This document shows, piece by piece, positions 16,413-29,586 of a stretch of DNA of 64,000 nucleotides (within the stretch, counting starts at the first letter, position 1; each line of letters begins with the position of its first letter). The translations under genes and the position numbers were made by a program. This DNA comes from Maribacter sp. HTCC2170. Lineage in GTDB: Bacteria > Bacteroidota > Bacteroidia > Flavobacteriales > Flavobacteriaceae. Below the pieces are notes generated by a model that was not told the DNA's origin, did no database searches, and saw nothing but the letters and a program-made list of their open reading frames with translations. The stretch lies in NCBI RefSeq assembly GCF_000153165.2, contig NC_014472.1, positions 2,105,501 to 2,169,500 of the forward strand, given 5' to 3'.

Positions 16413-17687
16413 TTAACCTTTCATCTTCCTCCGAATCTCATCCAAACACAAATTGCCCAAACTACCTTCATGCGTATGGTTGATATCCCTTTTTGGGGTA
16501 AATGTACCTTCGTTGATTTCCATCCCCATTTTTTTATAGGCATCACGAAAAGGCATTCCGTTTTGTACGAGTTCATTCAAAGTATCCACACTAAAGAGGT
16601 AATCGTATTTAGGATCTTCTAAAATATTCGTATTCACTTTAGCTTCTTTTAAGCTAAATGTCAAAATTTCAATACATGCCTTTAAATCTTGAATCGCGGG
16701 AACAATTATCTCTTTTACCAATTGCAAATCTCTGTGATAGCCGCTCGGAAGATTATTGATAATCAAAGTGAGTTGACTGGGAACCGCCTGCAGTTTATTG
16801 CACTTTGCTCGAACCAGTTCAAAAACATCGGGATTCTTCTTGTGTGGCATTATACTGCTGCCAGTGGTCAATTCATCTGGGAAGGAAATAAAATCAAAGT
16901 TCTGGCTCATGTACAAACAAATATCCATGGCCATTTTAGACAGTGTTGATGCAATACTGCTCATTCCGAATGCAGTTGCTTTTTCCACTTTACCACGGCC
17001 CATTTGAGCAGCTACTACATTATATTTCATGGTTTCAAAGCCCATTTCTTTTGTTGTGAATGTCCTATCTATATTAAAAGAACTTCCATAACCGGCAGCA
17101 CTGCCCAGTGGGTTTTGGTCGGCTACTTTATAGGCTGCATCAATAAAATAAAGGTCGTCTATCAAACTTTCGGCATAGGCTGAAAACCAAAGTCCGAAAG
17201 AGGACGGCATGGCAATTTGTAAATGGGTGTAGCCTGGTAATAAAATATCTTTGTTCTTGTCTGCTAAATCCATCAAAAGATTGAATAGTTCAATCGTCTC
17301 ACTTTTTATTTCGGTCAGTTCATTTTTTAAATACAAATGCACCGCTACTAAAACTTGGTCATTTCTTGATCGAGCGGTATGTATTTTTTTTCCAGTGTCT
17401 CCCAATTTTTCAGTCAGGATAAACTCAATTTTTGAATGCATGTCTTCAAAGGAATCCTCGATGGTAAATGAACCTTCTTCGATTGTTTTGGTAATGTTGT
17501 TCAATTCATTGACCAATGCTTCAGTTTCTTCAGAAGTGAGCAATCCAATCTTCCCCAACATTTTGGCATGTGCCTTTGAGGCGATGACATCATATTTCGC
17601 TAATAATAAATCTAACTCGCGGTCGTTACCTACCGTGAAATGGTCTATTTTTTTATCTGTACTGAATCCTTTATCCCAGAGTTTCAT
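16413..17687 (-). CDS. argH: Argininosuccinate lyase
   Basis: This enzyme (424 residues from ATG 17687) splits argininosuccinate to arginine and fumarate, the last step of the pathway. It carries the fumarase/aspartase signature GSSIMPHKKNPDVFELVR, HTARSRNDQV and TGSS loops. The ATG at 17687 fits the family start MKLWDKGF. An in-frame TTG five codons upstream (17702) is less likely. It is the last gene of the arginine/proline operon and is preceded by a 75-bp gap holding a short direct repeat, the largest gap inside the operon. Confidence 0.96.
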   Translation of the reverse strand: MKLWDKGFSTDKKIDHFTVGNDRELDLLLAKYDVIASKAHAKMLGKIGLLTSEETEALVNELNNITKTIEEGSFTIEDSFEDMHSKIEFILTEKLGDTGKKIHTARSRNDQVLVAVHLYLKNELTEIKSETIELFNLLMDLADKNKDILLPGYTHLQIAMPSSFGLWFSAYAESLIDDLYFIDAAYKVADQNPLGSAAGYGSSFNIDRTFTTKEMGFETMKYNVVAAQMGRGKVEKATAFGMSSIASTLSKMAMDICLYMSQNFDFISFPDELTTGSSIMPHKKNPDVFELVRAKCNKLQAVPSQLTLIINNLPSGYHRDLQLVKEIIVPAIQDLKACIEILTFSLKEAKVNTNILEDPKYDYLFSVDTLNELVQNGMPFRDAYKKMGMEINEGTFTPKRDINHTHEGSLGNLCLDEIRRKMKG

Positions 17688-17693
17688 AGTGTC

Positions 17694-17719
17694 AAATTTC
17701 AAGTTGAAATTTCAAGTTC
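17694..17719. repeat. 13-bp tandem direct repeat in the argH/argE-like gap
   Basis: AAATTTCAAGTTG is followed directly by AAATTTCAAGTTC. The junction contains the perfect 12-bp palindrome TTGAAATTTCAA (17704-17715). It lies just upstream of the argH start. The role is unknown, and AT-rich chance similarity is possible. Confidence 0.5.
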
Positions 17720-17762
17720 AAATACAAAAGCCTTGAGTTTGTATTTGATTCTTGAGTTGAGT

Positions 17763-18830
17763 TTATTTTTTTAAAAACCCGTTTAATAATTGAATATACA
17801 AATCAATTCCTTCTTCAATTTCATGCACATAAATATATTCATCTGCAGAATGCGAACGAGTACTGTCACCAGGCCCCAATTTCATAGATTGACAAGTCAG
17901 CGCTGCTTGGTCAGATAGGGTTGGTGAGCCATAGGTTTTACGACCTAGATCGATTCCCGATTTAACCAATTCGTGATTCTTGGTTATCGAAGAAGAATTC
18001 AATCGAAGTGAGCGTTCCTGAAGTTCACAAGGTGCGTCTTTTTTCAACATTTCAGCCACTTCTTTATTAGTATAGCAATCGTTTACTCGCACGTCGATCA
18101 CCAAATCGGTATGGGCAGGAACTACATTGTGTTGCGTACCAGCATTGATTTGGGTAACAGTTAATTTCACCTTGCCCAAAGATTCAGATGTTTTGTCAAA
18201 TTTGAAATTCTTGAACCAATCCAATACCTTAATCGTTTTATAGATTGAATTATCGTCATTTGGATGTGCAGCATGGGAAGGTGTGCCTTTAACCACGGCA
18301 TCAAAAACCACAAGTCCTTTTTCTGCAATAGCCAATTGCATTAATGTAGGTTCACCTACAATAGCAACATCAATTTTTGGGAGTGAAGGTAGGAGGGCTC
18401 TAAGACTTTTAGGCCCTGCATTTTCCTCTTCGGCAGAAGCTACCATCAAAATATTATGGTTGAGGTTATCTGAGGAATAGAAATGGGTAAAAGTTGCTAA
18501 TAAAGACACTAAAGCACCACCCGCATCATTACTGCCTAGACCAAAGAGTTTCCGGTCTTCAATTTGTGGGTCAAAAGGGTCTCTGGAATAAGCTTTGTTT
18601 GGTTTCACCGTATCATGATGAGAGTTTAAAAGCAGCGTAGGTTTACTATCATCCCAATGCTTATTCTTGGCGAATACGTTGTTGTTTATTCTTTCAAAGG
18701 GAATATCAAACGCATTGAACCAATTTTCGATGACTTCTGCGGTATGATTTTCCTCTCCTGAAAAAGATTGAATGGATATCAACTCTTTTAATAAATTTAT
18801 TGCTTTTTCGGTAAGTGCTGCTATGCTCAT
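17763..18830 (-). CDS. argE: M20 family deacylase of arginine synthesis (N-acylcitrulline/N-acylornithine deacylase)
   Basis: This is a 355-residue dinuclear zinc hydrolase. Metal-site motifs are LLNSHHDTVKP, GLGSNDAGGALVS, VASAEEENAGPKS and the C-terminal RSHSADEYIY. The M20 family includes ArgE and DapE. Here the operon contains an N-acylornithine carbamoyltransferase, so the likely substrate is N-succinyl- or N-acetylcitrulline, yielding citrulline for ArgG. It sits one base downstream of argB. The exact acyl group is inferred from the transcarbamylase, not from this protein. Confidence 0.87.
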   Translation of the reverse strand: MSIAALTEKAINLLKELISIQSFSGEENHTAEVIENWFNAFDIPFERINNNVFAKNKHWDDSKPTLLLNSHHDTVKPNKAYSRDPFDPQIEDRKLFGLGSNDAGGALVSLLATFTHFYSSDNLNHNILMVASAEEENAGPKSLRALLPSLPKIDVAIVGEPTLMQLAIAEKGLVVFDAVVKGTPSHAAHPNDDNSIYKTIKVLDWFKNFKFDKTSESLGKVKLTVTQINAGTQHNVVPAHTDLVIDVRVNDCYTNKEVAEMLKKDAPCELQERSLRLNSSSITKNHELVKSGIDLGRKTYGSPTLSDQAALTCQSMKLGPGDSTRSHSADEYIYVHEIEEGIDLYIQLLNGFLKK

Positions 18831-18831
18831 T

Positions 18832-19611
18832 TTATTTTGTTATTGTGGTATATAATAATGTTTCAGAATCAATCATTGAAACATCTCCGATACACACTTG
18901 GTCTACATTCTTATCCAGTGCATGAAAGCAATTCTCTAATTTGGGAAGCATACCATCTGCAATGATCTTACTATCCAACAATTCCTTATAAATTTTTGAA
19001 TTAATATGTTTTACGACTGAGTCTTCATTTGTTATATCTCGTAAAACACCTTTCTTTTCGAAACAATAGTAAAGAGTGGTCTCGAATTGCGAACTCATTC
19101 CAATAGCGATTTCAGATGCTATTGTGTCTGCATTGGTATTCAGTAATTGCCCATTTCCATCGTGGGTCATTGCACAAAATACGGGGACCAAATCAGCATG
19201 GAGCAATGTACTAATCGTTTTATCGTTTATACCATCTACATCACCCACAAAACCATAGTCAATTTCTTTTAGCGGTCTTTTATGAGCTTGAATGGCATCG
19301 CCATCGGCACCACTTAAACCAATTGCATTTGTGCCCAAGGCTTGTAGTTTTGCCACAATGTTTTTGTTGGTGAGTCCGCCATAAACCATTGTAATAACCT
19401 TTAAACTTTCCGCATCAGTAACTCTTCTTCCATTTACCATTTTAGATTCGATACCAAGTTTGGACGCCAATTGCGTGGCCAACTTACCGCCGCCGTGCAC
19501 CAATATTTTGGCACCAGAAAGTTTTGAAAAATTGGTTAGGAATTTGCCTAACTCTGTTTGATTCTCAATCACATTGCCGCCAATTTTTATGATGGATAAT
19601 TTTTGTTTCAT
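18832..19611 (-). CDS. argB: Acetylglutamate (N-acylglutamate) kinase
   Basis: This 259-residue amino-acid-kinase-fold enzyme phosphorylates the gamma-carboxyl of N-acylglutamate. Motifs: IIKIGGNVIEN at the N-terminus, ILVHGGGKLATQLASKLGI, VNGRRVTD, MVYGGLTNKNIVAKLQ and a nucleotide-binding LLNTNADTIASEIA. Length fits ArgB. In Bacteroidota with succinylornithine carbamoyltransferase the natural substrate may be N-succinylglutamate. It is tightly packed between the SDR gene and the deacylase gene. Confidence 0.93.
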   Translation of the reverse strand: MKQKLSIIKIGGNVIENQTELGKFLTNFSKLSGAKILVHGGGKLATQLASKLGIESKMVNGRRVTDAESLKVITMVYGGLTNKNIVAKLQALGTNAIGLSGADGDAIQAHKRPLKEIDYGFVGDVDGINDKTISTLLHADLVPVFCAMTHDGNGQLLNTNADTIASEIAIGMSSQFETTLYYCFEKKGVLRDITNEDSVVKHINSKIYKELLDSKIIADGMLPKLENCFHALDKNVDQVCIGDVSMIDSETLLYTTITK

Positions 19612-19627
19612 TTCTACTGGTAATGGT

Positions 19628-20374
19628 TTAAATGTTTATTATTCCGCCATCGATGGTAATTGCACTTCCTGTAATCCAAGACGCATCCTCAGAAGTTAGA
19701 AAAAGGGCAGTTTTTGCTATATCTTCTACCGTTCCCAACCTTTTAAGAAGGGTCATGTTTTTAGCATTTTCTATTGCCTTATCTGGATTTTCAAAAGCTT
19801 TTGCTGAATCCCAAAGTAGTGGAGTGTCTACAGGACCGGGACAAATGGCATTTACCCTAACTTCAGGAGCATATTCAACTGCCATTTGTTTCATTAACGC
19901 CAATGACCCTGCTTTTGAAGCACAATAAGCTGGATGGTTGGGAAAACTCTTGAAAGCGGCAATTGAGGCATTTATTAAAATATTCCCAGAATTCGACTGC
20001 GCTAAAAATGGCAAGGCATATTTTGCTAGATAAAAAATTGAACTAAGATTGGTTTCTAAGGTTTTGTTCCATTCTTCAATACTTAAATCAACTACATTGC
20101 CAACCCCTAAGATTCCTGCATTCAATGAAATAAAATCAAGTTTTCCATACTTCTCAATGGCTTTGTTGACCAGTAATTCGTTTGTTTTAGGAATGCTAAT
20201 ATCACCCGATATAAAAACGGAATCATTTAACTGACTTTCTAACAGGTTTCCGCTTTCGATATTTCTACCTGAAAGCACCAATTTGGCCCCTTCATTGGCA
20301 AAGTTCTGAGCAATGGCTTTACCCATCCCGCTGGTGGCTCCTGTGATTATCCCGACTTTGTTTTTCAGCTTCAT
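19628..20374 (-). CDS. SDR family oxidoreductase embedded in the arginine operon
   Basis: This is a 248-residue classical short-chain dehydrogenase. TGATSGMGKAIAQNFANEGA is the cofactor-binding loop, LNAGILG the NAG motif, INASIAAF carries the catalytic Ser and YCASKAGSLALMKQMAVEYA the YxxxK pair. The C-terminal GSAITIDGG is standard. The gene overlaps argF' upstream by 4 bp (ATGA) and lies 16 bp before argB, so it is co-translated with arginine genes, yet no SDR step exists in the known pathway. The substrate is unknown. Confidence 0.9.
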   Translation of the reverse strand: MKLKNKVGIITGATSGMGKAIAQNFANEGAKLVLSGRNIESGNLLESQLNDSVFISGDISIPKTNELLVNKAIEKYGKLDFISLNAGILGVGNVVDLSIEEWNKTLETNLSSIFYLAKYALPFLAQSNSGNILINASIAAFKSFPNHPAYCASKAGSLALMKQMAVEYAPEVRVNAICPGPVDTPLLWDSAKAFENPDKAIENAKNMTLLKRLGTVEDIAKTALFLTSEDASWITGSAITIDGGIINI

Positions 20375-21309
20375 AAGTTCTCTACTATTTTCTTTAGTAT
20401 AATCTGTGCTGCAAAAGTTCTATTGTTGGCTTGTTCAATCGTTAAAGACTGGTCACAGTCCAAAACAGCATCTTCTACCACAACATTTCTTCTTACAGGT
20501 AAACAATGCATAAATTTCGCATTCCCCAACTTTTCCTTGGTCATCATCCAAGTAGGGTCTTGATTCAAAACCTGGCCGTATTCAGCATAACTACTCCAAT
20601 TTTTAACCGATATAAAATCAGCATTTTCTAATGCTTTTTCTTGATCTGTTTCGATAGTGATTCCGTCAGTTATTTCAGGATTCAATTCATATCCTTTTGG
20701 ATGTGTAATGACAAATTCAGCATCCTGTAATTTCATCATTTCCACAAAGGAATTGGCAACTGCGTGTGGTAATGCTTTTGGATGAGGAGCCCAGGATAAT
20801 ACTACTTTTGGTCTCTTTTTAGTATTGTTTTCTGCAATAGTAATGGCATCAGCTAAAGCCTGTAGTGGATGCCCAACTGAACTTTCCATATTCAAGATTG
20901 GTACAGAAGCATATTTTTTAAATCCGTTTAACACAACTTCCGACTCGTCCTTTTCTTTATCAGTTAAGCCTGCAAATGCTCTAATCCCGATAATATCGCA
21001 ATACTGGGAAATTACCTGAGCTGCTTCCTTAATGTGTTCTGAGGTTCCTTGGTTCATAATAGTACCATCACCATATTCTAAAGCCCAGCCTTCACTACCA
21101 AAATTCATAACAATAACCTCCAGCCCCAAATTCATTGCAGCTTTTTGAGTACTCAAACGGGTTCGTAATGAATTATTAAAAAACAAAAGTCCTATCGTCT
21201 TATTTGTTCCTAAATTTGAAAATGCCCTTGGATTTTCTTTAAGTGCCTTTGCCTCTTCCATCAAAGTGGTTAGTGAATCAATATCGTTTATGGAAAGGTA
21301 ATTTTTCAT
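20371..21309 (-). CDS. argF': N-acylornithine carbamoyltransferase, probably succinylornithine type
   Basis: This is a 312-residue transcarbamylase. FFNNSLRTRLSTQKAAMNLG is the carbamoyl-phosphate loop in the Bacteroides succinylornithine-transcarbamylase form (SLRTR in place of STRTR). HCLPVRRN is the second substrate loop. Residue 90 is Ser (NQGTSEH), at the position occupied by Pro90 in the B. fragilis enzyme and Glu92 in the Xanthomonas acetylornithine enzyme. Published swaps of that Glu to Ser or Pro switch preference to succinylornithine, so a succinyl substrate is predicted. It overlaps proB upstream and the SDR downstream by 4 bp each. Confidence 0.92.
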   Translation of the reverse strand: MKNYLSINDIDSLTTLMEEAKALKENPRAFSNLGTNKTIGLLFFNNSLRTRLSTQKAAMNLGLEVIVMNFGSEGWALEYGDGTIMNQGTSEHIKEAAQVISQYCDIIGIRAFAGLTDKEKDESEVVLNGFKKYASVPILNMESSVGHPLQALADAITIAENNTKKRPKVVLSWAPHPKALPHAVANSFVEMMKLQDAEFVITHPKGYELNPEITDGITIETDQEKALENADFISVKNWSSYAEYGQVLNQDPTWMMTKEKLGNAKFMHCLPVRRNVVVEDAVLDCDQSLTIEQANNRTFAAQIILKKIVENL

Positions 21310-22070
21310 GCGATTATTTTTGTAAAATTATTGGTATTATTTAAAGCATTCAGGATAAAACTGTCCTGGAGTCCGTTCACAATCCAAGTTTCTATTCCAA
21401 CCTTTTGGGCAATAGTTGCGGCTTCGATTTTGGATTGCATTCCGCCGGTACCATGACTCGATTTTCCTATGCTTACCTCGTTGCTCAGGGATGCCAAATT
21501 TTTCACAGAGGTTATGGTTTCAGGAGTGTTATTTTTAATTGAGGCTTTGGTGTAAATCCCATCAGTATTGGTGGCAATTAATAACAAATCAACTTTGAGT
21601 AAAGATGCAGTAAGTGCTGCCAATTTATCATTGTCCCCAAATTTGATTTCATCAGTGGCAACCGTGTCATTTTCGTTGATTATGGGAATGAAGTTATTGC
21701 TCACCAATACATTGATCGTGTTCTTTATATTTATTTTTGACTCTTCTTTTTCAAAGTCGGAATAGGACAATAAGCACTGAGAGGTAAATAATCCTAGTTC
21801 CCTAAAGTTTTCCTGAAAAATGCGCATTAGATGTGGTTGACCAATTGCAGCCAAGGCTTGTTTTACATTGATTTCCTCACCGTTATGTTCCAACTTCACG
21901 AACTGTTTTGCTGCAGCGATTGCCCCGGAACTCACGATAATAAACTCGTAATCATCCTTTAAATGGGCAATTTGTCGACCAATATCCTCAATCTTACCCC
22001 TAGAAATATGATTAGTTTCTTTGGTTAAGGTATTGGAACCTATTTTAAGTAAAATTCTCTTTTTCTTCAT
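21306..22070 (-). CDS. proB: Glutamate 5-kinase (catalytic domain only)
   Basis: This is a 254-residue amino-acid-kinase-fold enzyme for the first step of proline synthesis. Motifs: ILLKIGSNTLTKE, IVSSGAIAAAK, ENDTVATDEIKFGDNDKLAA and GTGGMQSKIEAA. The C-terminal PUA domain of the E. coli enzyme is absent, as in many other ProB proteins, and this may alter feedback behaviour. It lies between proA and argF' with a 4-bp overlap to the latter. Confidence 0.95.
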   Translation of the reverse strand: MKKKRILLKIGSNTLTKETNHISRGKIEDIGRQIAHLKDDYEFIIVSSGAIAAAKQFVKLEHNGEEINVKQALAAIGQPHLMRIFQENFRELGLFTSQCLLSYSDFEKEESKINIKNTINVLVSNNFIPIINENDTVATDEIKFGDNDKLAALTASLLKVDLLLIATNTDGIYTKASIKNNTPETITSVKNLASLSNEVSIGKSSHGTGGMQSKIEAATIAQKVGIETWIVNGLQDSFILNALNNTNNFTKIIA

Positions 22071-22072
22071 GG

Positions 22073-23269
22073 CTATCTAGTTTGTCCTTTTCCTAAAATG
22101 TACCATTTATTAGTTACCAAATGTTGTAACCCTATTGGCCCTCTTTGGTGTAGTTTATCTGTGCTGATAGCCAATTCTCCGCCAAGTCCAAACTGCCCGC
22201 CATCTGTGAACCGTGTTGAGGCGTTGTGATAAACCGCGGCTGCATCAACAGATTGCATAAAGGTATTAGCTTTATCTTCGTTGGAAGTGATAATAGCTGC
22301 TGAATGCCCACCACCATATTTGTTGATTTTTACAATCGCATCTTCTAAAGAAACAGTCTGACCAAGAACTATTTTATAATCCAAAAACTCTTCATACCAA
22401 GAACTTTCATCTTCAATAGGCGATGTTCCATCAAGCGTTGAAAATGCTTCATCAGTTAGTATCTCAACATCACGCTTTTTTAACTCCAAAACCAATTGTT
22501 GGATGAATTCTGGTTTTCTTGGAATATCTGAAGCAATCAGTACTTTGTCCAAAGCGTTACAAGCCGAAATCTTAGTGGTTTTTGCATTCACAATAATGTC
22601 TATTGCCATCTGAAGATCAGCCTCAGAATCAACATAGACAAAATTATTGCCTCTTCCACTGATAATCACAGGACATGTTGCATGTTGCTTAACAAAAGCA
22701 ATTAATCTTTCACCTCCTCTGGGAACAATCAAATCCACTTTTTGGGTTGGATTTTCCAAGAACTGCTGTGTCTTTTCTCTATCAAACTGCAAATAAGTGA
22801 CCCAGTCCGTACTGCAATTTTGGGATGCTAAGGCTTTATGCCATAGATCAACCAAAGCCAGATTACTGTTCAATGATTCCTTTCCACCTTTCAGTAATAT
22901 TTTGTTGCCTGATTTAAAAGCGATTCCTGCGGCCTCAATGGTCACATCTGGTCTGGATTCATATATGATCAGAATTGTACCAAATGGTGCTGTTTTATTG
23001 CTCACATTTATACCGTTCTCATGTGTAAAAGCGAATCGTTCAACACCCAAAGGGTCTTCTGCATTTGCCAATTGCTGAAGAGATAAGACCATTCCGTCAA
23101 TCTTGGATTGGTCAACTTTTAATCGGTCCCGCATGGCTAAATCATCACCAGAATATCCAGTTATATCTTTGCTATTGGCTTCCAAGAGTACTGTTTTGTG
23201 CTGTACAATTAAATCGGCCATTTTAAGCAAAACAGCGTTTCGGTCTTTTATGTTCAATAGAATGCTCAC
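22073..23269 (-). CDS. proA: Glutamate-5-semialdehyde dehydrogenase (gamma-glutamyl phosphate reductase)
   Basis: This is a 398-residue aldehyde-dehydrogenase-fold enzyme for the second proline step. The catalytic Cys lies in KTTKISACNALDKVLI. YESRPDVTIEAAGIAFKSGN and LIVPRGGERLIAFVKQ are ProA signatures, and the C-terminal RGPIGLQHLVTNKW is also diagnostic. The start codon is GTG at 23269, overlapping the TAG stop of argD by one base, so the two are translationally coupled. Confidence 0.95.
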   Translation of the reverse strand: MSILLNIKDRNAVLLKMADLIVQHKTVLLEANSKDITGYSGDDLAMRDRLKVDQSKIDGMVLSLQQLANAEDPLGVERFAFTHENGINVSNKTAPFGTILIIYESRPDVTIEAAGIAFKSGNKILLKGGKESLNSNLALVDLWHKALASQNCSTDWVTYLQFDREKTQQFLENPTQKVDLIVPRGGERLIAFVKQHATCPVIISGRGNNFVYVDSEADLQMAIDIIVNAKTTKISACNALDKVLIASDIPRKPEFIQQLVLELKKRDVEILTDEAFSTLDGTSPIEDESSWYEEFLDYKIVLGQTVSLEDAIVKINKYGGGHSAAIITSNEDKANTFMQSVDAAAVYHNASTRFTDGGQFGLGGELAISTDKLHQRGPIGLQHLVTNKWYILGKGQTR

Positions 23270-24393
23270 TATAATTCTGCTTTAAGGGCTTTAAAAAACA
23301 AATCGATATGTTCTTTGGTACAATTCAATGCTGGTAAAAAACGGAGTAGGTTTTTATTCGTTGCACCACCAGTAAACATATGTTGGTCGTAAATCATTTT
23401 TTTGCGTAATTCTCCAACTTCGAAATCAAATTCAATTCCTAGCATCAAACCTCTTCCTTTCACATTTTTGATTTCTTGTACCTCTTTGGCCTTTTCTTTA
23501 AAATATGCTCCAGCTTCTGTAGCATTTTCAATAAGGTTTTCATTTTCTAAAACCTCAAGAACGGCCATGGTTGCGGCACAAGCTAAATGATTTCCTCCAA
23601 AGGTTGTTCCTAGTTGTCCATATGAGGCTATAATGCTTTCATGAATAAGAATACCTCCAACAGGAAAACCGTTGCCCATACCTTTTGCTATGGATATGAT
23701 ATCGGGATCTATATTATGATGCTGAAAACCAAAGAATTTTCCACTTCGCCCAAAGCCACATTGTACTTCATCAGCAATCAGTAGAACCCCGTTATCTTTA
23801 CATAAACTGGCGACTAGCTGAAAAAATTCAGTAGTGGGTTCATCAAGACCTCCGACACCTTGAATAGCTTCAAGAATAACAGCACAAACATCTCCTTTTG
23901 TTATTTCTTGGGTAAATGCGGTAAAATCATTAAACGGTAAGATGGTGACATTTTGCTGTTGGTTCAGTGGTGCATTTATTTTTTCATTATCCGTTGCGGC
24001 CACTGCTGCAGAAGTTCTTCCGTGGAAACCATTTTTAAAGGAAATGACCCTGGATTTTCCAGTTTGAAAAGAGGCCATTTTCAATGCATTTTCATTGGCT
24101 TCAGCACCTGAGTTACATAAGAACAAGTTGTAATCCTCACAATGTGATAATTTTCCTAATTTGGTGGCAAGTTCAACTTGTAATGGATTTTGAACGGCAT
24201 TGCTGTAAAAACCAATTTTGTCTAATTGGCTCTTTAGCTTTTCTATATAATGTGGATGTCCATGACCAATGGAAATTACGGCATGTCCTCCATAAAAATC
24301 CAAATATTCTTGCCCCTGGTCATCTACAACCACCATTCCCTTGGCAGAAACTGGCGTTACATTGTAGAGGGGATATACATCAAACAACTTCAT
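23269..24393 (-). CDS. argD: Acetylornithine/succinylornithine aminotransferase
   Basis: This is a 374-residue class-III PLP aminotransferase. NSGAEANENALKMA binds the cofactor phosphate. LLIADEVQCGFGRSGKFFGF contains the conserved Asp, and IISIAKGMGNGFPVGGILI the Schiff-base Lys. It converts N-acylglutamate semialdehyde to N-acylornithine. It overlaps proC upstream by 4 bp and proA downstream by 1 bp, so arginine and proline genes are interleaved at the level of translation. Confidence 0.93.
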   Translation of the reverse strand: MKLFDVYPLYNVTPVSAKGMVVVDDQGQEYLDFYGGHAVISIGHGHPHYIEKLKSQLDKIGFYSNAVQNPLQVELATKLGKLSHCEDYNLFLCNSGAEANENALKMASFQTGKSRVISFKNGFHGRTSAAVAATDNEKINAPLNQQQNVTILPFNDFTAFTQEITKGDVCAVILEAIQGVGGLDEPTTEFFQLVASLCKDNGVLLIADEVQCGFGRSGKFFGFQHHNIDPDIISIAKGMGNGFPVGGILIHESIIASYGQLGTTFGGNHLACAATMAVLEVLENENLIENATEAGAYFKEKAKEVQEIKNVKGRGLMLGIEFDFEVGELRKKMIYDQHMFTGGATNKNLLRFLPALNCTKEHIDLFFKALKAEL

Positions 24394-25190
24394 AATTGGC
24401 CCTCTTTTATTTTATTTATTTTTTCATAGGAGGCGACAATTCCTTGAATCAACGAAGAACTTAACCCTTGGTGTTCCATTTCATTCAATCCTTGAATAGT
24501 ACAGCCTTTAGGGGTAGTCACCTTGTCAATTTCCTCCTCAGGGTGTCTTCCCGATTCTATTAAAAGACCTGCAGCACCATTACAGGTGTGCATAGCGAGT
24601 TCCTGCGCTTCTTTGGCATCAAACCCTAACTGAATTGCACCCTGCGTGGTAGCCCGGATTAGACGCATCCAAAATGCGATACCACTGGCACATATTACGG
24701 TTGCTGCTTGCATCTGATTCTCAGGAATCTCAAGACTATGCCCCATTCTATTGAATATAGCCTTGGCCAAATCGATCCTCGATTTTCCTTTATTGTTGCT
24801 GCAGATACAGGTCATTGATTTGCCAACTGAAATAGCCGTATTGGGCATACTGCGAATAATGTCATGGTCCTCTCCAATGATATTTTCGATCATTGAAATA
24901 CTAAAACCAGTTATGGTTGAAATCACCACATGGTTCTCAGTCAGGAGATCTTTGCAATTTTCAAGAATAGCTCCAAATTGACTCGGTTGAATGGCAAAAA
25001 TGAGAATGTCTGAATTTTTAATGGCCTCCCGATTGTCTGAAGTTATAGTTACATTCTCATATTTCGAAAAAGCGGTAATTTCTCCAGTATTCCTTTTTGT
25101 CAGATACATGCTGGTCGCTCCGTCAGAAGATAAAATTCCCTTGGCGATTGACAACCCTAAATTTCCTGCTCCTATAATTGCTATTTTCAT
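24390..25190 (-). CDS. proC: Pyrroline-5-carboxylate reductase
   Basis: This is a 266-residue NAD(P)-dependent enzyme for the last proline step. The N-terminal Rossmann motif is IAIIGAGNLGLSIAKGIL. VISTITGFSISMIENI, IRSMPNTAISVGKSMTCIC and the C-terminal VTTPKGCTIQGLNEME are ProC signatures. It is placed between argC and argD. All three proline genes are therefore in this operon. Confidence 0.95.
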   Translation of the reverse strand: MKIAIIGAGNLGLSIAKGILSSDGATSMYLTKRNTGEITAFSKYENVTITSDNREAIKNSDILIFAIQPSQFGAILENCKDLLTENHVVISTITGFSISMIENIIGEDHDIIRSMPNTAISVGKSMTCICSNNKGKSRIDLAKAIFNRMGHSLEIPENQMQAATVICASGIAFWMRLIRATTQGAIQLGFDAKEAQELAMHTCNGAAGLLIESGRHPEEEIDKVTTPKGCTIQGLNEMEHQGLSSSLIQGIVASYEKINKIKEGQL

Positions 25191-25233: not shown

Positions 25234-26208
25234 TTAAAACACTCCTGCTTTCAGATTCAGTCCAGCTGTTTCTTCAAACCCGAGCATTAAATTCATGTTT
25301 TGAATCGCCTGCCCCGAAGCACCTTTTAATAGGTTGTCTACGGCAGATGTAACTAATAGCGTATTTTCATGTTCATGCAAGTGAATGTGACACTGATTCG
25401 TATTCACTACTTGTTTCAAGTGAATGGGCTCTTTCGTAACGTGGGTAAATTTGGCTTCTTTGTAAAAATCTTGGAATAACGAAAAGGCATCTTCCAAACT
25501 CCCTTTAAACGTGGTGTAGGCAGTTGCCAAAATTCCTCTAGAAAAATTACCACGAATGGGTAAGAACATTATTTTTCCTGGATTTTCTTGTAGCGAAGTC
25601 AGACTTTCATTGATTTCTCCTAAATGTTGATGGGTAAAGGGTTTGTACCAAGAAACATTATTGTTTCTCCAACTAAAATGTGTGGTTCCGGATGGGCTAA
25701 CACCAGCACCTGTGCTTCCAGTAACCGCATTTACGTGGATATCTTCATTAAGTAGTCCGGCCTTTGCCATGGGTAAAAGTGCTAATTGAATTGCTGAAGC
25801 AAAACAACCAGGATTTGCTATATATTGAGCCTTTTGAATTTTGGATTTAAAAAGCTCTGGCAAACCGTATATGAATTCTTTCCCCTGAAAAACTGCATCG
25901 TCATTAAGCCTAAAATCATTGCTTAAATCAATGATCTTCGTGTTATTTGAAAACGAGTGATCATTCAAGAAATTGGTAGAATTACCGTGCCCTAAGCACA
26001 AGAAAACCAAATCAACCGTGAGATTAACATTTTCGGTAAACTCCAGATTGGTCAACCCGGTTAAATCTGCATGCGCAGACGAAACTTGTTTGCCGGCTCT
26101 TGTGGTACTGAATACAAAATCAATCTCAGCATTCGGATGGTTCAATAGTATTCTGATGAGCTCTCCACCGGTATATCCAGAGCCTCCAATGATTCCTACT
26201 TTAATCAT
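25234..26208 (-). CDS. argC: N-acetyl-gamma-glutamyl-phosphate (N-acyl) reductase
   Basis: This is a 324-residue NADPH-dependent reductase. The Rossmann motif is VGIIGGSGYTGGELIRILLNHP. The catalytic Cys is in IANPGCFASAIQLALLPM. HQHLGEINESL and RGNFSRGILATAY are further ArgC motifs. Its start overlaps the 3' end of argG by 8 bp. Confidence 0.95.
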   Translation of the reverse strand: MIKVGIIGGSGYTGGELIRILLNHPNAEIDFVFSTTRAGKQVSSAHADLTGLTNLEFTENVNLTVDLVFLCLGHGNSTNFLNDHSFSNNTKIIDLSNDFRLNDDAVFQGKEFIYGLPELFKSKIQKAQYIANPGCFASAIQLALLPMAKAGLLNEDIHVNAVTGSTGAGVSPSGTTHFSWRNNNVSWYKPFTHQHLGEINESLTSLQENPGKIMFLPIRGNFSRGILATAYTTFKGSLEDAFSLFQDFYKEAKFTHVTKEPIHLKQVVNTNQCHIHLHEHENTLLVTSAVDNLLKGASGQAIQNMNLMLGFEETAGLNLKAGVF

Positions 26209-27391
26209 GACTTTGATTTACATGGTTTGCTATTTTACTGGAATTCGAAAGAATTTTGATAAACCCTTTTGCATCGGCAGCAGTCCAACCTTTATGCATT
26301 TCACCATAACTTCCGAAGGAGGCATTCATCAAATCGTGTTTAGATGAAATCCCATTCAATCTAAATTGAAACGGATATAAACTAACAAATACATCTCCAG
26401 ATACGTTCTTTTGGGTATCGGTTAAGAAAGCTTCAATATTTCGCATTACTTCGTCTAAATAGTTTCCTTCATGCAATAACATTCCGTAGAAATTACCTTG
26501 TTGTTCTTTCTGGTATTGCTGCCATTTACTTAGTGTGTGTTTTTCCAATAAATGGTGTGCTTTAATTATAATCAAGGCGGCAGCAGCTTCAAAGCCAACT
26601 CTTCCTTTTATTCCAATAATAGTATCGCCCACATGAATGTCTCTGCCAATGGCGTATTTAGAGGCCATTATTTCAAGCTTTTCGATATTTGCCACAGGGT
26701 TATCTTTTTTTCCGTTTATAGCAATCAGTTCTCCCTTTTCAAAAGTTAGTTTTACTTCTGAAGGTTCTTTCTCTTGTAATTGACTTGGGTAGGCGCTATC
26801 AGGCAATGGAAGGTTCGAGGTCAAGGTTTCATCACCGCCAACAGATGTTCCCCATAGCCCTTTGTTAATAGAGTATTTTGCTTTTTCCCAAGGATAGTCC
26901 ACTCCATTTTTTTGAAGATATTCTATCTCATATTCCCTAGAAAGTTTGTTGTCCCTGATAGGGGTGATGATTTCAATTTCTGGAGCGATTATTTGAAAAA
27001 TCATATCAAAACGTACTTGGTCGTTTCCTGCTCCCGTACTACCGTGAGCGATATAATCTGCACCCATTTTTTTTGCATGATTCACGATTTCAATTGCCTG
27101 CACAATTCTTTCAGCACTTACCGATAGTGGGTAGGTGTTGTTTTTTAACACATTACCAAAAATCAAGTATTTCACGACTTTGTCATAAAAGATTTGAACA
27201 GCATCAATTGAGGTATAGGTGGTTGCTCCCAATTCTATGGCTTTAGAATTAATTTCGGATATTTCTTCTTTTGAGAACCCACCAGTGTTCACACTAACTG
27301 CATGTACTTCATATCCCTTTTCTTTAGATAAATATTTTGCACAGTACGAAGTATCCAAACCTCCACTATATGCCAAGACTACTTTATTCAT
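26201..27391 (-). CDS. argG: Argininosuccinate synthase
   Basis: This is a 396-residue ATP-dependent ligase joining citrulline and aspartate. VLAYSGGLDTSYCAKYL is the PP-loop. HGSTGAGNDQVRFD is the substrate-binding motif, and GLWGTSVGGD is also conserved. The start overlaps the end of the GNAT gene by 4 bp. It is the second full-length gene of the operon. Confidence 0.95.
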   Translation of the reverse strand: MNKVVLAYSGGLDTSYCAKYLSKEKGYEVHAVSVNTGGFSKEEISEINSKAIELGATTYTSIDAVQIFYDKVVKYLIFGNVLKNNTYPLSVSAERIVQAIEIVNHAKKMGADYIAHGSTGAGNDQVRFDMIFQIIAPEIEIITPIRDNKLSREYEIEYLQKNGVDYPWEKAKYSINKGLWGTSVGGDETLTSNLPLPDSAYPSQLQEKEPSEVKLTFEKGELIAINGKKDNPVANIEKLEIMASKYAIGRDIHVGDTIIGIKGRVGFEAAAALIIIKAHHLLEKHTLSKWQQYQKEQQGNFYGMLLHEGNYLDEVMRNIEAFLTDTQKNVSGDVFVSLYPFQFRLNGISSKHDLMNASFGSYGEMHKGWTAADAKGFIKILSNSSKIANHVNQSHD

Positions 27392-28008
27392 TTTTTCTTT
27401 CTTTTTAGAAATAATTGTTCCTTGATGCTTTTTAATCGTTTATACGATTTACTATTTATTTTTTCTTTTTCTGTGTCTTTTTCCTTTTTCTTCGGGTCAT
27501 ACAACATGCCTGTACAAAGACACATTTTTTGCTCGGTTCGGGTAAGAATATCAAAGTTCTTACAAGTTTGGCAACCTTTCCAAAATTGAGGGTCATCAGT
27601 TAATTCTGAAAACGTTACTGGCTGATACCCTAATTCATAATTGATTTTCATTACAGCCAATCCTGTGGTAATTCCAAATATTTTGGCTTCAGGAAATTTT
27701 TTAATGGAAAGGTCAAAAATGGCTTTTTTGATTTTCTTCGCCATTCCTTTATGTCTATAATTGGGATGTACTATAAGACCTGAGTTGGCAACGTAGTTAT
27801 TATGTCCCCAAATTTCAATATAGCAGAACCCTACAAAATTACCCTCATCCAAAGCGATGACCGCATTACCTTTTTCAAGTTTGTTAAGGATATAATCAGG
27901 TGTTCTTTTGGCAATACCTGTTCCTCGAACCTTAGCAGATTCGGCAATGGTATCACAGATGATATCTGCGTATTTAAAATGGGATTCGTTGGCAATAACA
28001 ATTTCCAT
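27388..28008 (-). CDS. GNAT N-acyltransferase, candidate N-acylglutamate synthase (argA-like)
   Basis: This is a 206-residue acetyltransferase-fold protein. GLIVHPNYRHKGMAKKIKKAIF matches the acyl-CoA-binding GNAT motif A. The C-terminal part carries a compact cysteine set, GCQTC then MCLCTGM, which could bind a metal, followed by a lysine-rich tail. As first gene of an otherwise near-complete pathway that lacks a recognisable argA or argJ, it is the natural candidate for the N-acetyl- or N-succinylglutamate synthase. That role is inferred from context. The family fold is clear. Confidence 0.82.
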   Translation of the reverse strand: MEIVIANESHFKYADIICDTIAESAKVRGTGIAKRTPDYILNKLEKGNAVIALDEGNFVGFCYIEIWGHNNYVANSGLIVHPNYRHKGMAKKIKKAIFDLSIKKFPEAKIFGITTGLAVMKINYELGYQPVTFSELTDDPQFWKGCQTCKNFDILTRTEQKMCLCTGMLYDPKKKEKDTEKEKINSKSYKRLKSIKEQLFLKRKKK

Positions 28009-28056: not shown

Positions 28057-28078
28057 GGAAATGGACTCACCTATTTCC
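28057..28078 (-). promoter_or_regulatory. Hairpin in the arg/pro leader, downstream of the leader ORF
   Basis: On the minus strand GGAAAT (28078-28073) pairs with ATTTCC (28062-28057) around a 10-nt loop. An overlapping alternative pairs ATGGA (28080-28076) with TCCAT (28065-28061). No U-run follows directly. A U-rich stretch begins about 15 nt later, so this is not a standard intrinsic terminator. Confidence 0.45.
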
Positions 28079-28088
28079 ATACTATATG

Positions 28089-28118
28089 ACACCCTTACGG
28101 GCGGCGACGTGTGGGTGC
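28089..28118 (-). promoter_or_regulatory. Hairpin enclosing the Arg-Arg-Arg-Pro-stop codons of the leader ORF
   Basis: GCACCC (28118-28113) pairs with GGGTGT (28094-28089), five Watson-Crick pairs plus one G-U. An inner ACG/CGT pairing is possible. The codons CGT CGC CGC CCG TAA lie entirely within the enclosed segment. A ribosome stalled there would prevent or melt this hairpin. Confidence 0.55.
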
Positions 28119-28178
28119 AAACGAACGATTGGGAGCTACTGCCCAATTAGTTGTAGATATATATAGTTCGTTTTTCAT
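28095..28178 (-). CDS. Arginine/proline-rich leader peptide of the arg/pro operon (27 residues)
   Basis: The ORF runs from ATG 28178 to TAA 28095 on the minus strand. It begins MKNELYIS and ends APTRRRP. Four of 27 residues are Arg and three are Pro. The final four sense codons (CGT CGC CGC CCG) read Arg-Arg-Arg-Pro immediately before the stop. The start lies about 8 bp after a perfect -7 box, so the mRNA leader before it is only a few nucleotides. It is followed by the operon that makes arginine and proline. By analogy with the his, trp and leu leader peptides of enteric bacteria it should sense charged tRNA-Arg and tRNA-Pro. The sequence is seen, the function is inferred. Confidence 0.8.
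   Translation of the reverse strand: MKNELYISTTNWAVAPNRSFAPTRRRP
28119..28173 (-). promoter_or_regulatory. Long hairpin within the first part of the leader ORF
   Basis: AAACGAAC (28173-28166) is an exact 8-bp complement of GTTCGTTT (28126-28119). Inside it TTGGG (28146-28142) pairs with CCCAA (28133-28129). This hairpin ends one base before the Arg/Pro-codon hairpin starts. Such stacked hairpins are the expected form of a leader whose folding follows ribosome position. Confidence 0.55.
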
Positions 28179-28185
28179 TATGAAT

Positions 28186-28216
28186 CAAATGTACAAATTA
28201 AAATGAAATAGCAAAG
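28186..28216 (-). promoter_or_regulatory. Promoter of the arginine/proline operon
   Basis: On the minus strand TTTG (28216-28213), a 19-bp spacer and TACATTTG (28193-28186) match the Bacteroidota -33/-7 consensus at every defined position. Transcription should start near 28182, just ahead of the leader peptide ATG. It lies immediately downstream of the membrane glycosyltransferase gene, which has the same orientation. Confidence 0.8.
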
Positions 28217-28224
28217 TTTGGGTC

Positions 28225-29586
28225 TTAATTTTTGCGAAATAGCTGTTTTATACTCTTTAACCTGAATATTTCGAAAAATATAAATCCGAATACAACTAAA
28301 TACTCAATAGATAGGATGCCAAGATGTTCAACGAAACTATCTTGGGAATATGCATAATAGCTCAAAACCACTACTAACGACCAAGCTAAAGAATACCTGT
28401 ATTCCGTGAATATGGTTAGCAATACCAGAAATACAATGTACCAAGGATGAACTGTGGCGGCAAGTAAAAAGTATGCTGTTAGGACCCAAAGCATTGAGGT
28501 TATCAAAACTGGTAATTTTTGATTTTTCCGAAGAAAAGTGAATAAAACAACAAGGGAGATTATTATGAATGGTGTGATTTTCCCATAGGTTTTTATCAAC
28601 TCCCATGGTTTTGCCTCAAGCTTTATAGCTATGAATTTAATGGCATTGTATATGCCCGCGTTAAACTCAAAGTTTGAGAACCAGAGAGCAATCGTACCAG
28701 TGTAATTCGAAATAAATTCGGAAGAGAAAAAGGGAGCAAATAGCAGTACTGAAACGGTTGTAACTATTGAATAAAAGAGTAAACTTTTTTTAAGCCCTAG
28801 ATGTTTATAAAATAAAGGTAGAAACATCAAAGGAACTAATTTAATCGAGATTGAACATGCCATAAGAACAGCGGCTAATTTCCACTTTTGAATGGATAGG
28901 AAATACAATGAAATGGTAAAAAATGAAAGCATAACACCTTCAAAGTGCAGGTTTCCTGTTAGTTCTAAAATTACAAGCGGGTTAAGAAAATACCAAAATA
29001 TAAGATGTGGGGAGAGGTTAAGATTTTTTAATAGTTTTCTTCCGAAATAGAATATACCAATATCAGCAAGAATTATAAAAAGGCGCATTGATACTACTGA
29101 GCCTAGGATGGTGTTATAACCAAAAGTGGTGCTTAATGCAAATATGACCTGATTCAAAGGGGGGTAATTGCTATAATTCCTTGCACTTAAATCACCCATT
29201 CCTGCAAAGGTTTCATTTAGTAAAGGAATACTGGGCACTCCATCTTTGAGAAATCCATTGGGCGTAAAGAGATAAGGGTTGATAAAATTACTGACTAATT
29301 CGCCGTCCCAAATAAACCGATAAAAGTCTTGCGACAAATGTGGTTCATGAATTAAGAAAACTAATCTAAAAAGTATACCTACAAACAAAAGGAATTTGAA
29401 GTTCCATTTTTCAAATTGAATGAGTTTGTAGCACAAAAAAAACAATGCTCCGAAAAGTGAGATTAGCCTTATAAAATCGGTTCGTTCAAGATAATAGGCA
29501 AATGTGTAGTAGAACCCAAGACTTATAATCACCAATAATATTGAAACCTTGTGTAGTTTCCAATAAGTTATGATTTGATTGGGCAT
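28225..29586 (-). CDS. Polytopic membrane glycosyltransferase (mannosyltransferase-like, GT-C fold)
   Basis: This 453-residue protein has about a dozen hydrophobic helices and few long soluble parts. The first large loop contains HEPHLSQDFYRFIWDGELVSN, an acidic motif resembling the catalytic loop of polyprenyl-phosphate-dependent GT-C mannosyltransferases. NPYLFTPNGF and FWYFLNPLVILELTGNLHFEG are also typical. It would transfer a sugar from a lipid-phosphate donor on the outer face of the inner membrane. Donor and acceptor are unknown. It ends a run of same-strand genes that includes two GT2 enzymes, one of which could make the polyprenyl-phosphate sugar. Confidence 0.75.
   Translation of the reverse strand: MPNQIITYWKLHKVSILLVIISLGFYYTFAYYLERTDFIRLISLFGALFFLCYKLIQFEKWNFKFLLFVGILFRLVFLIHEPHLSQDFYRFIWDGELVSNFINPYLFTPNGFLKDGVPSIPLLNETFAGMGDLSARNYSNYPPLNQVIFALSTTFGYNTILGSVVSMRLFIILADIGIFYFGRKLLKNLNLSPHLIFWYFLNPLVILELTGNLHFEGVMLSFFTISLYFLSIQKWKLAAVLMACSISIKLVPLMFLPLFYKHLGLKKSLLFYSIVTTVSVLLFAPFFSSEFISNYTGTIALWFSNFEFNAGIYNAIKFIAIKLEAKPWELIKTYGKITPFIIISLVVLFTFLRKNQKLPVLITSMLWVLTAYFLLAATVHPWYIVFLVLLTIFTEYRYSLAWSLVVVLSYYAYSQDSFVEHLGILSIEYLVVFGFIFFEIFRLKSIKQLFRKN

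Follow-up and report, generated by a model that had tools for sequence, protein, structure and literature searches.

The closest precedents for a short ORF of the kind analysed here appear to be orf34-speF of Salmonella and rbfL of Staphylococcus aureus. In orf34-speF, consecutive Arg codons of an upstream short ORF sense arginine and alter the folding of the mRNA, and the read-out involves Rho and RNase G with no simple terminator (PMC6386406). In these respects it resembles the leader described below (the arg leader), but it controls ornithine decarboxylase and not arginine synthesis, and both the peptide and the RNA are different (PMC6386406). In rbfL, a scarcity of arginine is read from Arg codons of a single tRNA within a small leader ORF, as is proposed here, whereas rbfL acts on the initiation of rbf translation, uses AGA and AGG codons and is not connected with an arg operon (PMC13009471). 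Runs of codons for the end product are also shared with the actinobacterial cys and leuA (LEU element) leaders. The cys leader has no conserved terminator hairpins and leuA adjoins a conserved pseudoknot; both differ from the arg leader in amino acid, phylum and structure, and the accessible part of that paper describes no hairpin resembling the P2 element introduced below (PMC1262725).

Among Bacteroidota, there are hints of leader-peptide attenuation before amino-acid operons in Flavobacterium psychrophilum, with conserved elements at pheA, hisG and others; arg is not named among the structured 5' regions in the sections of that study considered here (PMC9723704). Leader-peptide-like short ORFs have been reported from Bacteroides thetaiotaomicron, with no mention of arginine in the accessible part of the report (PMC7366714), and the corresponding parts of two further studies name no arginine leader (PMC4833913 and PMC6847099). 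The titles and abstract openings of open-access articles among the matches listed likewise describe no arginine leader for Bacteroidota.

The stretch of DNA analysed (64,000 nucleotides of Maribacter sp. HTCC2170, referred to as the window) contains a candidate leader on its minus strand, with the following features.

28186 to 28215, minus strand: promoter, comprising TTTG (28215-28212), an 18-nt spacer and the sigmaA box TACATTTG (28193-28186), predicted from the sequence
28178 to 28095, minus strand: leader ORF of 27 codons, MKNELYISTTNWAVAPNRSFAPTRRRP-stop, assigned from the sequence with frame and codon evidence
28128 to 28147, minus strand: P0, a weakly supported hairpin within the ORF, ATTGGG..CTCCCAAT, seen in the window's clade only
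28090 to 28103, minus strand: P1, hairpin CGCCC-GUAA-GGGUG, overlying the last Arg codon, the Pro codon and the stop, from alignments A1 and A2 and RNAalifold
28057 to 28078, minus strand: P2, hairpin with a 6-bp stem, a bulged A (28072), 2 bp and the pentaloop UGAGU (consensus UGNGU), from covariation

The earlier note on this DNA had described a 27-codon ORF with four Arg and three Pro codons a few bases after a consensus promoter, and both parts of this description are accurate. The ORF at 28178-28095 has Arg at codons 18, 24, 25 and 26, every one of them CGU or CGC, and Pro at codons 16, 22 and 27, and ends APTRRRP-stop. The promoter element is a Bacteroidota sigmaA box with 7 nt between its end and the leader ATG. 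Since this box spans -12 to -5 relative to the start site in F. psychrophilum (PMC9723704), transcription is predicted to start near 28181, giving a 5' UTR of approximately 3 nt. The box was detected in 31 of 32 loci of the window's clade; in 28 of these the gap to the ATG is 7 nt, and it stays within 6-8 nt throughout. This near-leaderless layout is unusual, given that leaderless mRNAs account for only 5.5% in F. psychrophilum (PMC9723704). As a single sequence the ORF itself is only mildly unusual, because the window holds 435 ATG ORFs of 15-45 codons and five of them, the leader ORF included, contain at least three Arg in their last seven codons; it is conservation, and not the single sequence, that settles its reality.

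The leader is followed by a minus-strand operon with the gene order GNAT - argG - argC - proC - argD-like - proA - proB - carbamoyltransferase - SDR - argB - deacylase-like - argH-like.

27388 to 28008, minus strand: GNAT acetyltransferase, the first gene (Pfam PF13508/PF00583)
26201 to 27391, minus strand: argG (TIGR00032, above cut-off)
25234 to 26208, minus strand: argC (TIGR01850, above cut-off)
24390 to 25190, minus strand: proC (TIGR00112, above cut-off)
23269 to 24393, minus strand: argD-like aminotransferase (TIGR00707, 373.4 bits, under the cut-off of 410)
22073 to 23269, minus strand: proA (NF001221, above cut-off)
21306 to 22070, minus strand: proB (TIGR01027, above cut-off)
20371 to 21309, minus strand: N-acyl-ornithine carbamoyltransferase-like (NF003384, 279.6 bits, cut-off 288)
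19628 to 20374, minus strand: short-chain dehydrogenase (SDR) between the carbamoyltransferase and argB (Pfam search)
18832 to 19611, minus strand: argB (TIGR00761, above cut-off)
16413 to 19611, minus strand: block of argB, deacylase-like and argH-like genes

The deacylase-like and argH-like genes are presumed to be such from their translations alone. Judging by its position, the GNAT acetyltransferase is possibly the N-acylglutamate synthase of the arginine pathway; the sole NCBIfam match of this protein (28008-27388) lies far under the cut-off. The long protein encoded by the gene upstream of the leader on the same strand (28225-29586) matches nothing in Pfam, and this gene and its neighbours are presumably glycosyltransferase-like, judging by their translations.

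Of 12 genomes of the genus 11 have a GNAT orthologue, as do 131 of 199 sampled genomes of the family, and upstream regions were taken from 139 of the 140 genomes with a GNAT match, a weak match (G162, E 1.6e-4) being left out; the related genomes are non-independent samples in all of the family counts that follow. The P2 motif GGTGNGTCC is present in 121 of the 139 regions and six further regions contain it with a variant loop; a covariance model recovers ten of the remaining 18 at E < 0.001, these six included. Six loci (L121, L084, L125, L133, L134 and L138) show no model match up to E 0.1. An ORF tail ending in Arg-Pro could be anchored in 115 of the 121 P2-bearing regions, and the six regions without a strict Arg-Pro anchor were left out of the tail counts. 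The check that the earlier note had proposed, for a short ORF ending in Arg and Pro codons upstream of the orthologous genes, is borne out, with P2 and tail together in 115 of 139 regions.

The frame of this tail is conserved. Over the 12 codons before the Arg-Pro pair of the 115 leaders, Arg makes up 25.7% in frame versus 4.9% and 2.8% in the other two frames, and stop codons number zero in the coding frame versus 30 and 59. The last 14 codons contain two to six Arg, with three to five in 103 of the 115 leaders. A further Arg immediately precedes the Arg-Pro anchor in 105 leaders and a stop directly follows it in 101, while the other 14 extend 2-9 residues past it. The 55 leaders ending in RRRP use ten codon combinations, chiefly through CGU-CGC swaps in either direction. 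The N-terminal part of the peptide differs between clades, in the part of the comparison considered. In L084 and L074, inspection by eye shows degenerate-looking remnants of the RRP leader, with P2 lost or altered and an upstream Arg-rich ORF kept.

The association with arginine genes was also obtained without reference to the gene. A pattern derived from these leaders was run against a named genome collection and gave at least 119 stretches, 80 of which were examined; the first downstream gene was GNAT in 77 and argG in one, the other two lying too near a sequence edge to judge, so that the arg operon follows at every one of the 78 loci that could be evaluated. Going by their titles, the 80 loci presumably belong to Flavobacteriaceae or to unplaced Bacteroidetes/Flavobacteriales. 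Within its own genome the covariance model finds one strong match (E 2.4e-14), the next being at E 1.0. With stricter filters, under which weak matches are lost, a search at the level of the order matched 33 of 395 genomes, all of the same family, with no match in 19 genomes of one genus (g127), and a search at the level of the class matched ten of 395. Two of these ten (E 0.003 and 0.005) belong to other families, which is about what chance gives for 395 genomes. P2 was also considered as a general module of this genome and rejected as such, the sole other exact TAGGTGWGTCC lying inside a coding sequence and the model giving a single strong match. A search for the arginine repressor ArgR (PF01316) was positive in one of the 199 family genomes and negative in the Maribacter sp. 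HTCC2170 genome; the control search was positive in nine of 14 known genomes.

The choice of Arg codons changes sharply at the tail. Codons CGU and CGC, which are presumably decoded by one tRNA-Arg, make up 219 of 249 Arg codons of the tail outside its last two positions and 218 of 220 in these two positions (88-99%). Further up in these frames, at codons -15 to -28, they make up only two of 35 (Fisher p 2.6e-23 versus 219 of 249), this upstream stretch being bounded by in-frame stops and not by a start codon, so that some of its codons are perhaps untranslated. For comparison, 16 genes of the window use CGU or CGC in 49 of 171 Arg codons. The Pro codons of the leaders, in contrast, show no preferred codon. 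The strong preference for CGU and CGC need not mean sensing, because frequent and rare Arg codons acted alike in the Salmonella orf34-speF leader, which differs from the arg leader in this respect (PMC6386406).

Both P1 and P2 are predicted by RNAalifold on alignment A3 (17 of 31 regions) with no structure supplied. Alignment A1 comprises 102 of the 121 regions and alignment A2 comprises 49 anchored rows with a one-base bulge and a stem of at least five pairs, with redundancy removed, so that counts for P2 on A2 lean towards the stem. The P2 arms form at least five contiguous base pairs in 113 of 116 distinct arm pairs, compared with 49.8 on average and at most 65 when the arms were shuffled 1000 times. 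On A2, whose rows were chosen beforehand for a stem of at least 5 bp, six of the eight P2 pairs have changed on both sides. None of 500 shuffles of A2 reaches the whole-structure covariation score and one reaches the count of pairs changed on both sides; for another of the five measures, the number of further pair types, 92 of the 500 reach the value of the alignment. The P2 stem is supported by covariation on the basis of these alignments. The inner GG:CC pairs have become GA:UC in L043, L108 and L119, and one of these pairs is broken in L072. For P1, A2 contains no covarying pair and the outer pair is broken in 12 of the 49 rows, so that the conservation of CGC-CCG may partly have another cause. 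P0 has a mean z of -1.7 over 18 loci of the window's own clade, two of which lie above zero, and is possibly a pause hairpin.

The spacing between ORF and hairpin is locked. The Arg-Pro codons lie 31-36 nt from the P2 loop in all 115 anchored leaders (sd 1.3), in contrast to the distance from P2 to the gene, which ranges from 53 to 259 nt, and to the stop codon, which is shifted in 14 leaders. A search of Rfam 15 gave no match on the strand of the leader and one sub-threshold match (E 0.41) on the opposite strand. The AGGUGA of the P2 loop resembles the complement of the 3' end of 16S rRNA. The loop was therefore considered as an extended Shine-Dalgarno sequence and rejected as such, the variable base N of the loop being A in 82, U in 25 and C in eight of the 115 leaders and the inner GG:CC pairs having changed jointly to GA:UC in three loci.

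In sum, a short ORF in a conserved frame carries a cluster of codons for the end product, with a marked codon choice and at a locked distance from the P2 stem, upstream of the matching arginine operon. These observations indicate that it is probably a cis-acting arginine-sensing leader of that operon. The conserved frame argues that the ORF is translated; what follows on stalling, on the direction of regulation and on the functions of the two hairpins is a proposal. A transcript starting approximately 3 nt before the AUG would have ribosomes load at its 5' end, and a ribosome near the end of the ORF would read two to six CGU or CGC Arg codons, mostly three to five. When charged tRNA-Arg is plentiful the ribosome would finish and leave, and P1 could close over the Arg-Pro-stop codons; when it is scarce the ribosome would stall on the Arg codons and P1 would stay open. 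The fixed partner would be P2, located 31-36 nt beyond the Arg-Pro codons and folding immediately in front of a ribosome that has stalled or is terminating. Its bulged A, two pairs and conserved loop suggest a binding site, with the bulged A and the UGNGU loop as the probable points of contact for a trans factor or for the machinery of transcription or decay. Arginine shortage would raise expression of the operon, the candidate read-outs being premature termination, RNA decay or translation. Weighing against this reading are the negative terminator scan at P1 and P2 described below, the lack of covariation in P1, the further pair types that many shuffles reach, the equal performance of frequent and rare Arg codons in Salmonella, the genomes and loci that give no model match, and the rarity of near-leaderless mRNA in the family. 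More tentatively, P2 might dock a trans factor, making the leader a ribosome-gated RNA-protein switch that replaced ArgR and acts through something other than an intrinsic terminator or a blocked ribosome-binding site; on the present sequences this is conceivable and not the expected outcome.

The earlier note had cited the enteric his, trp and leu leaders, in which ribosomes stall at codons for the end product. In a classical attenuator of this type, a ribosome stalled on the Arg codons would control transcription either through a weak terminator hairpin, formed by P1 (or P2), or through mutually exclusive pairing between the stretch of Arg codons and the loop of P2. A terminator scan of the window found no U-tract terminator after P1 or P2, the sole terminator-like site in the arg leader being P0, inside the ORF. 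The same scan does find the terminator of the his leader of this genome (MRNQNTHHHFYTCSQAR-stop; L294, G000:C1:2747190), a leader that lies upstream of hisG, has three His codons in a row and is followed shortly before hisG by a terminator hairpin of 11 pairs and a T-rich tail. The his and arg leaders are alike in placing a short ORF with regulatory codons ahead of a biosynthetic operon and differ in that the latter has P1 and P2 and no such terminator. Shortly after P2, at least six T in any 8 nt occur in only ten of 115 loci. P1 is G+C-rich and overlies the Arg codons, and in 92 of 115 loci the linker after it is T-rich, with at least five T within 8 nt, although the linker of the window is not; because such linkers are common in the relatives, weak termination at P1 stays a rival. 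As to exclusive pairing, or a pseudoknot of P2 with the Arg codons like that of the LEU element, both of which stay conceivable, a 4-nt complement of the GGUG on one side of P2 lies within the last four codons of all 115 anchored leaders, which is weak evidence as it follows nearly automatically from CGY codons, and in 12 of 13 unusual leaders, including four with the variant GAUG. It is missing in L033, and the loop base N shows no dependence on the wobble position of the codon before the last (p 0.30). A classical attenuator in one of these forms is doubtful, while retaining some likelihood.

Ribosomes can also be arrested by the nascent chain, as in the tryptophan-dependent arrest at TnaC, and free arginine (or ornithine) might act in this way at RRP-stop. 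The regular presence of Arg before the anchor (105 of 115) and of a stop directly after it (101 of 115) would fit such a signal, but the remaining peptide differs between clades in the part of the comparison considered, the position of the stop shifts with the 2-9 additional residues in 14 of 115 leaders and the strong choice among synonymous codons is unexpected if the signal resides in the peptide. Conservation beyond the sensing residues combined with a fixed codon, as in TnaC, SpeFL and the fungal AAP, is not seen, and an arrest peptide is unlikely. An arginine riboswitch, with P1-P2 binding the ligand as RNA and the ORF secondary, would account for the near-invariant loop and bulged A and for the covarying stem. 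P2 is, however, small for an aptamer, and the conserved frame and the codon choice need translation, making this reading very unlikely.

The leader had originally been proposed to sense arginine and proline together. The arginine half of this proposal is supported, by conservation, frame, codon choice and the gene-blind link to the arg operon, and the proline half is not, as the mean number of extra Pro codons is alike whatever the location of proA. Of 130 loci that were classed, 45 have proA in the operon and 28 have it elsewhere, while in 57 it was undetected, where 'in operon' means on the same contig within 12 kb, a contig break therefore being scored as elsewhere, and undetected cases may include divergent genes. 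Of the anchored leaders, 106 of 115 could be classed, the other nine coming from the genus search, which had no proA search. The mean number of extra Pro is 1.35 with proA in the operon, 1.43 with proA elsewhere and 1.31 with proA undetected (Mann-Whitney p 1.0 for in operon versus the rest). The terminal Arg-Pro is present in 37/37, 21/21 and 48/48 of these classes, which carries little weight as the leaders were anchored on it. At least one extra Pro occurs in 35/37, 19/21 and 38/48, respectively, and the comparison of 35/37 in operon with 57/69 others is a non-significant lean towards dual sensing (Fisher p 0.13). Dual sensing would also fit the share of Pro (11.7%) in the 12 codons that lead up to the Arg-Pro pair and the presence of proC, proA and proB in the operon of the window. 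Against it are the equal mean Pro with or without proA in the operon, the lack of bias towards one Pro codon and the involvement of the last Pro codon in the P1 stem. Nothing positive in the sequences favours proline sensing, which is not supported, and a dual sensor is most improbable.

An arginine-sensing leader would provide a candidate arginine control for a large bacterial family in which the standard repressor was not detected, and it adds a conserved RNA element without a match in Rfam. The use of one kind of Arg codon in the tail and another upstream in the same frame would constitute a natural test of codon-specific starvation sensing. Bacteroidota mRNAs are without Shine-Dalgarno sequences, and the near-leaderless mRNA offers a test setting in such a phylum (PMC6847099).

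In many loci (L053, L059, L063, L092 and L097 among them) the RRP leader is preceded by another short, Arg-rich ORF in tandem, approximately 210-285 nt ahead of GNAT; that of L092 reads MKNLKNKIRCTIPGLPVRSRRRF-stop. Away from the anchor 49 Arg-rich ORFs were counted, some of which are the main leader of unanchored loci. In 23 of the tandem ORFs CGC or CGU makes up 96 of 109 Arg codons, and a promoter-like box lies just before the start.
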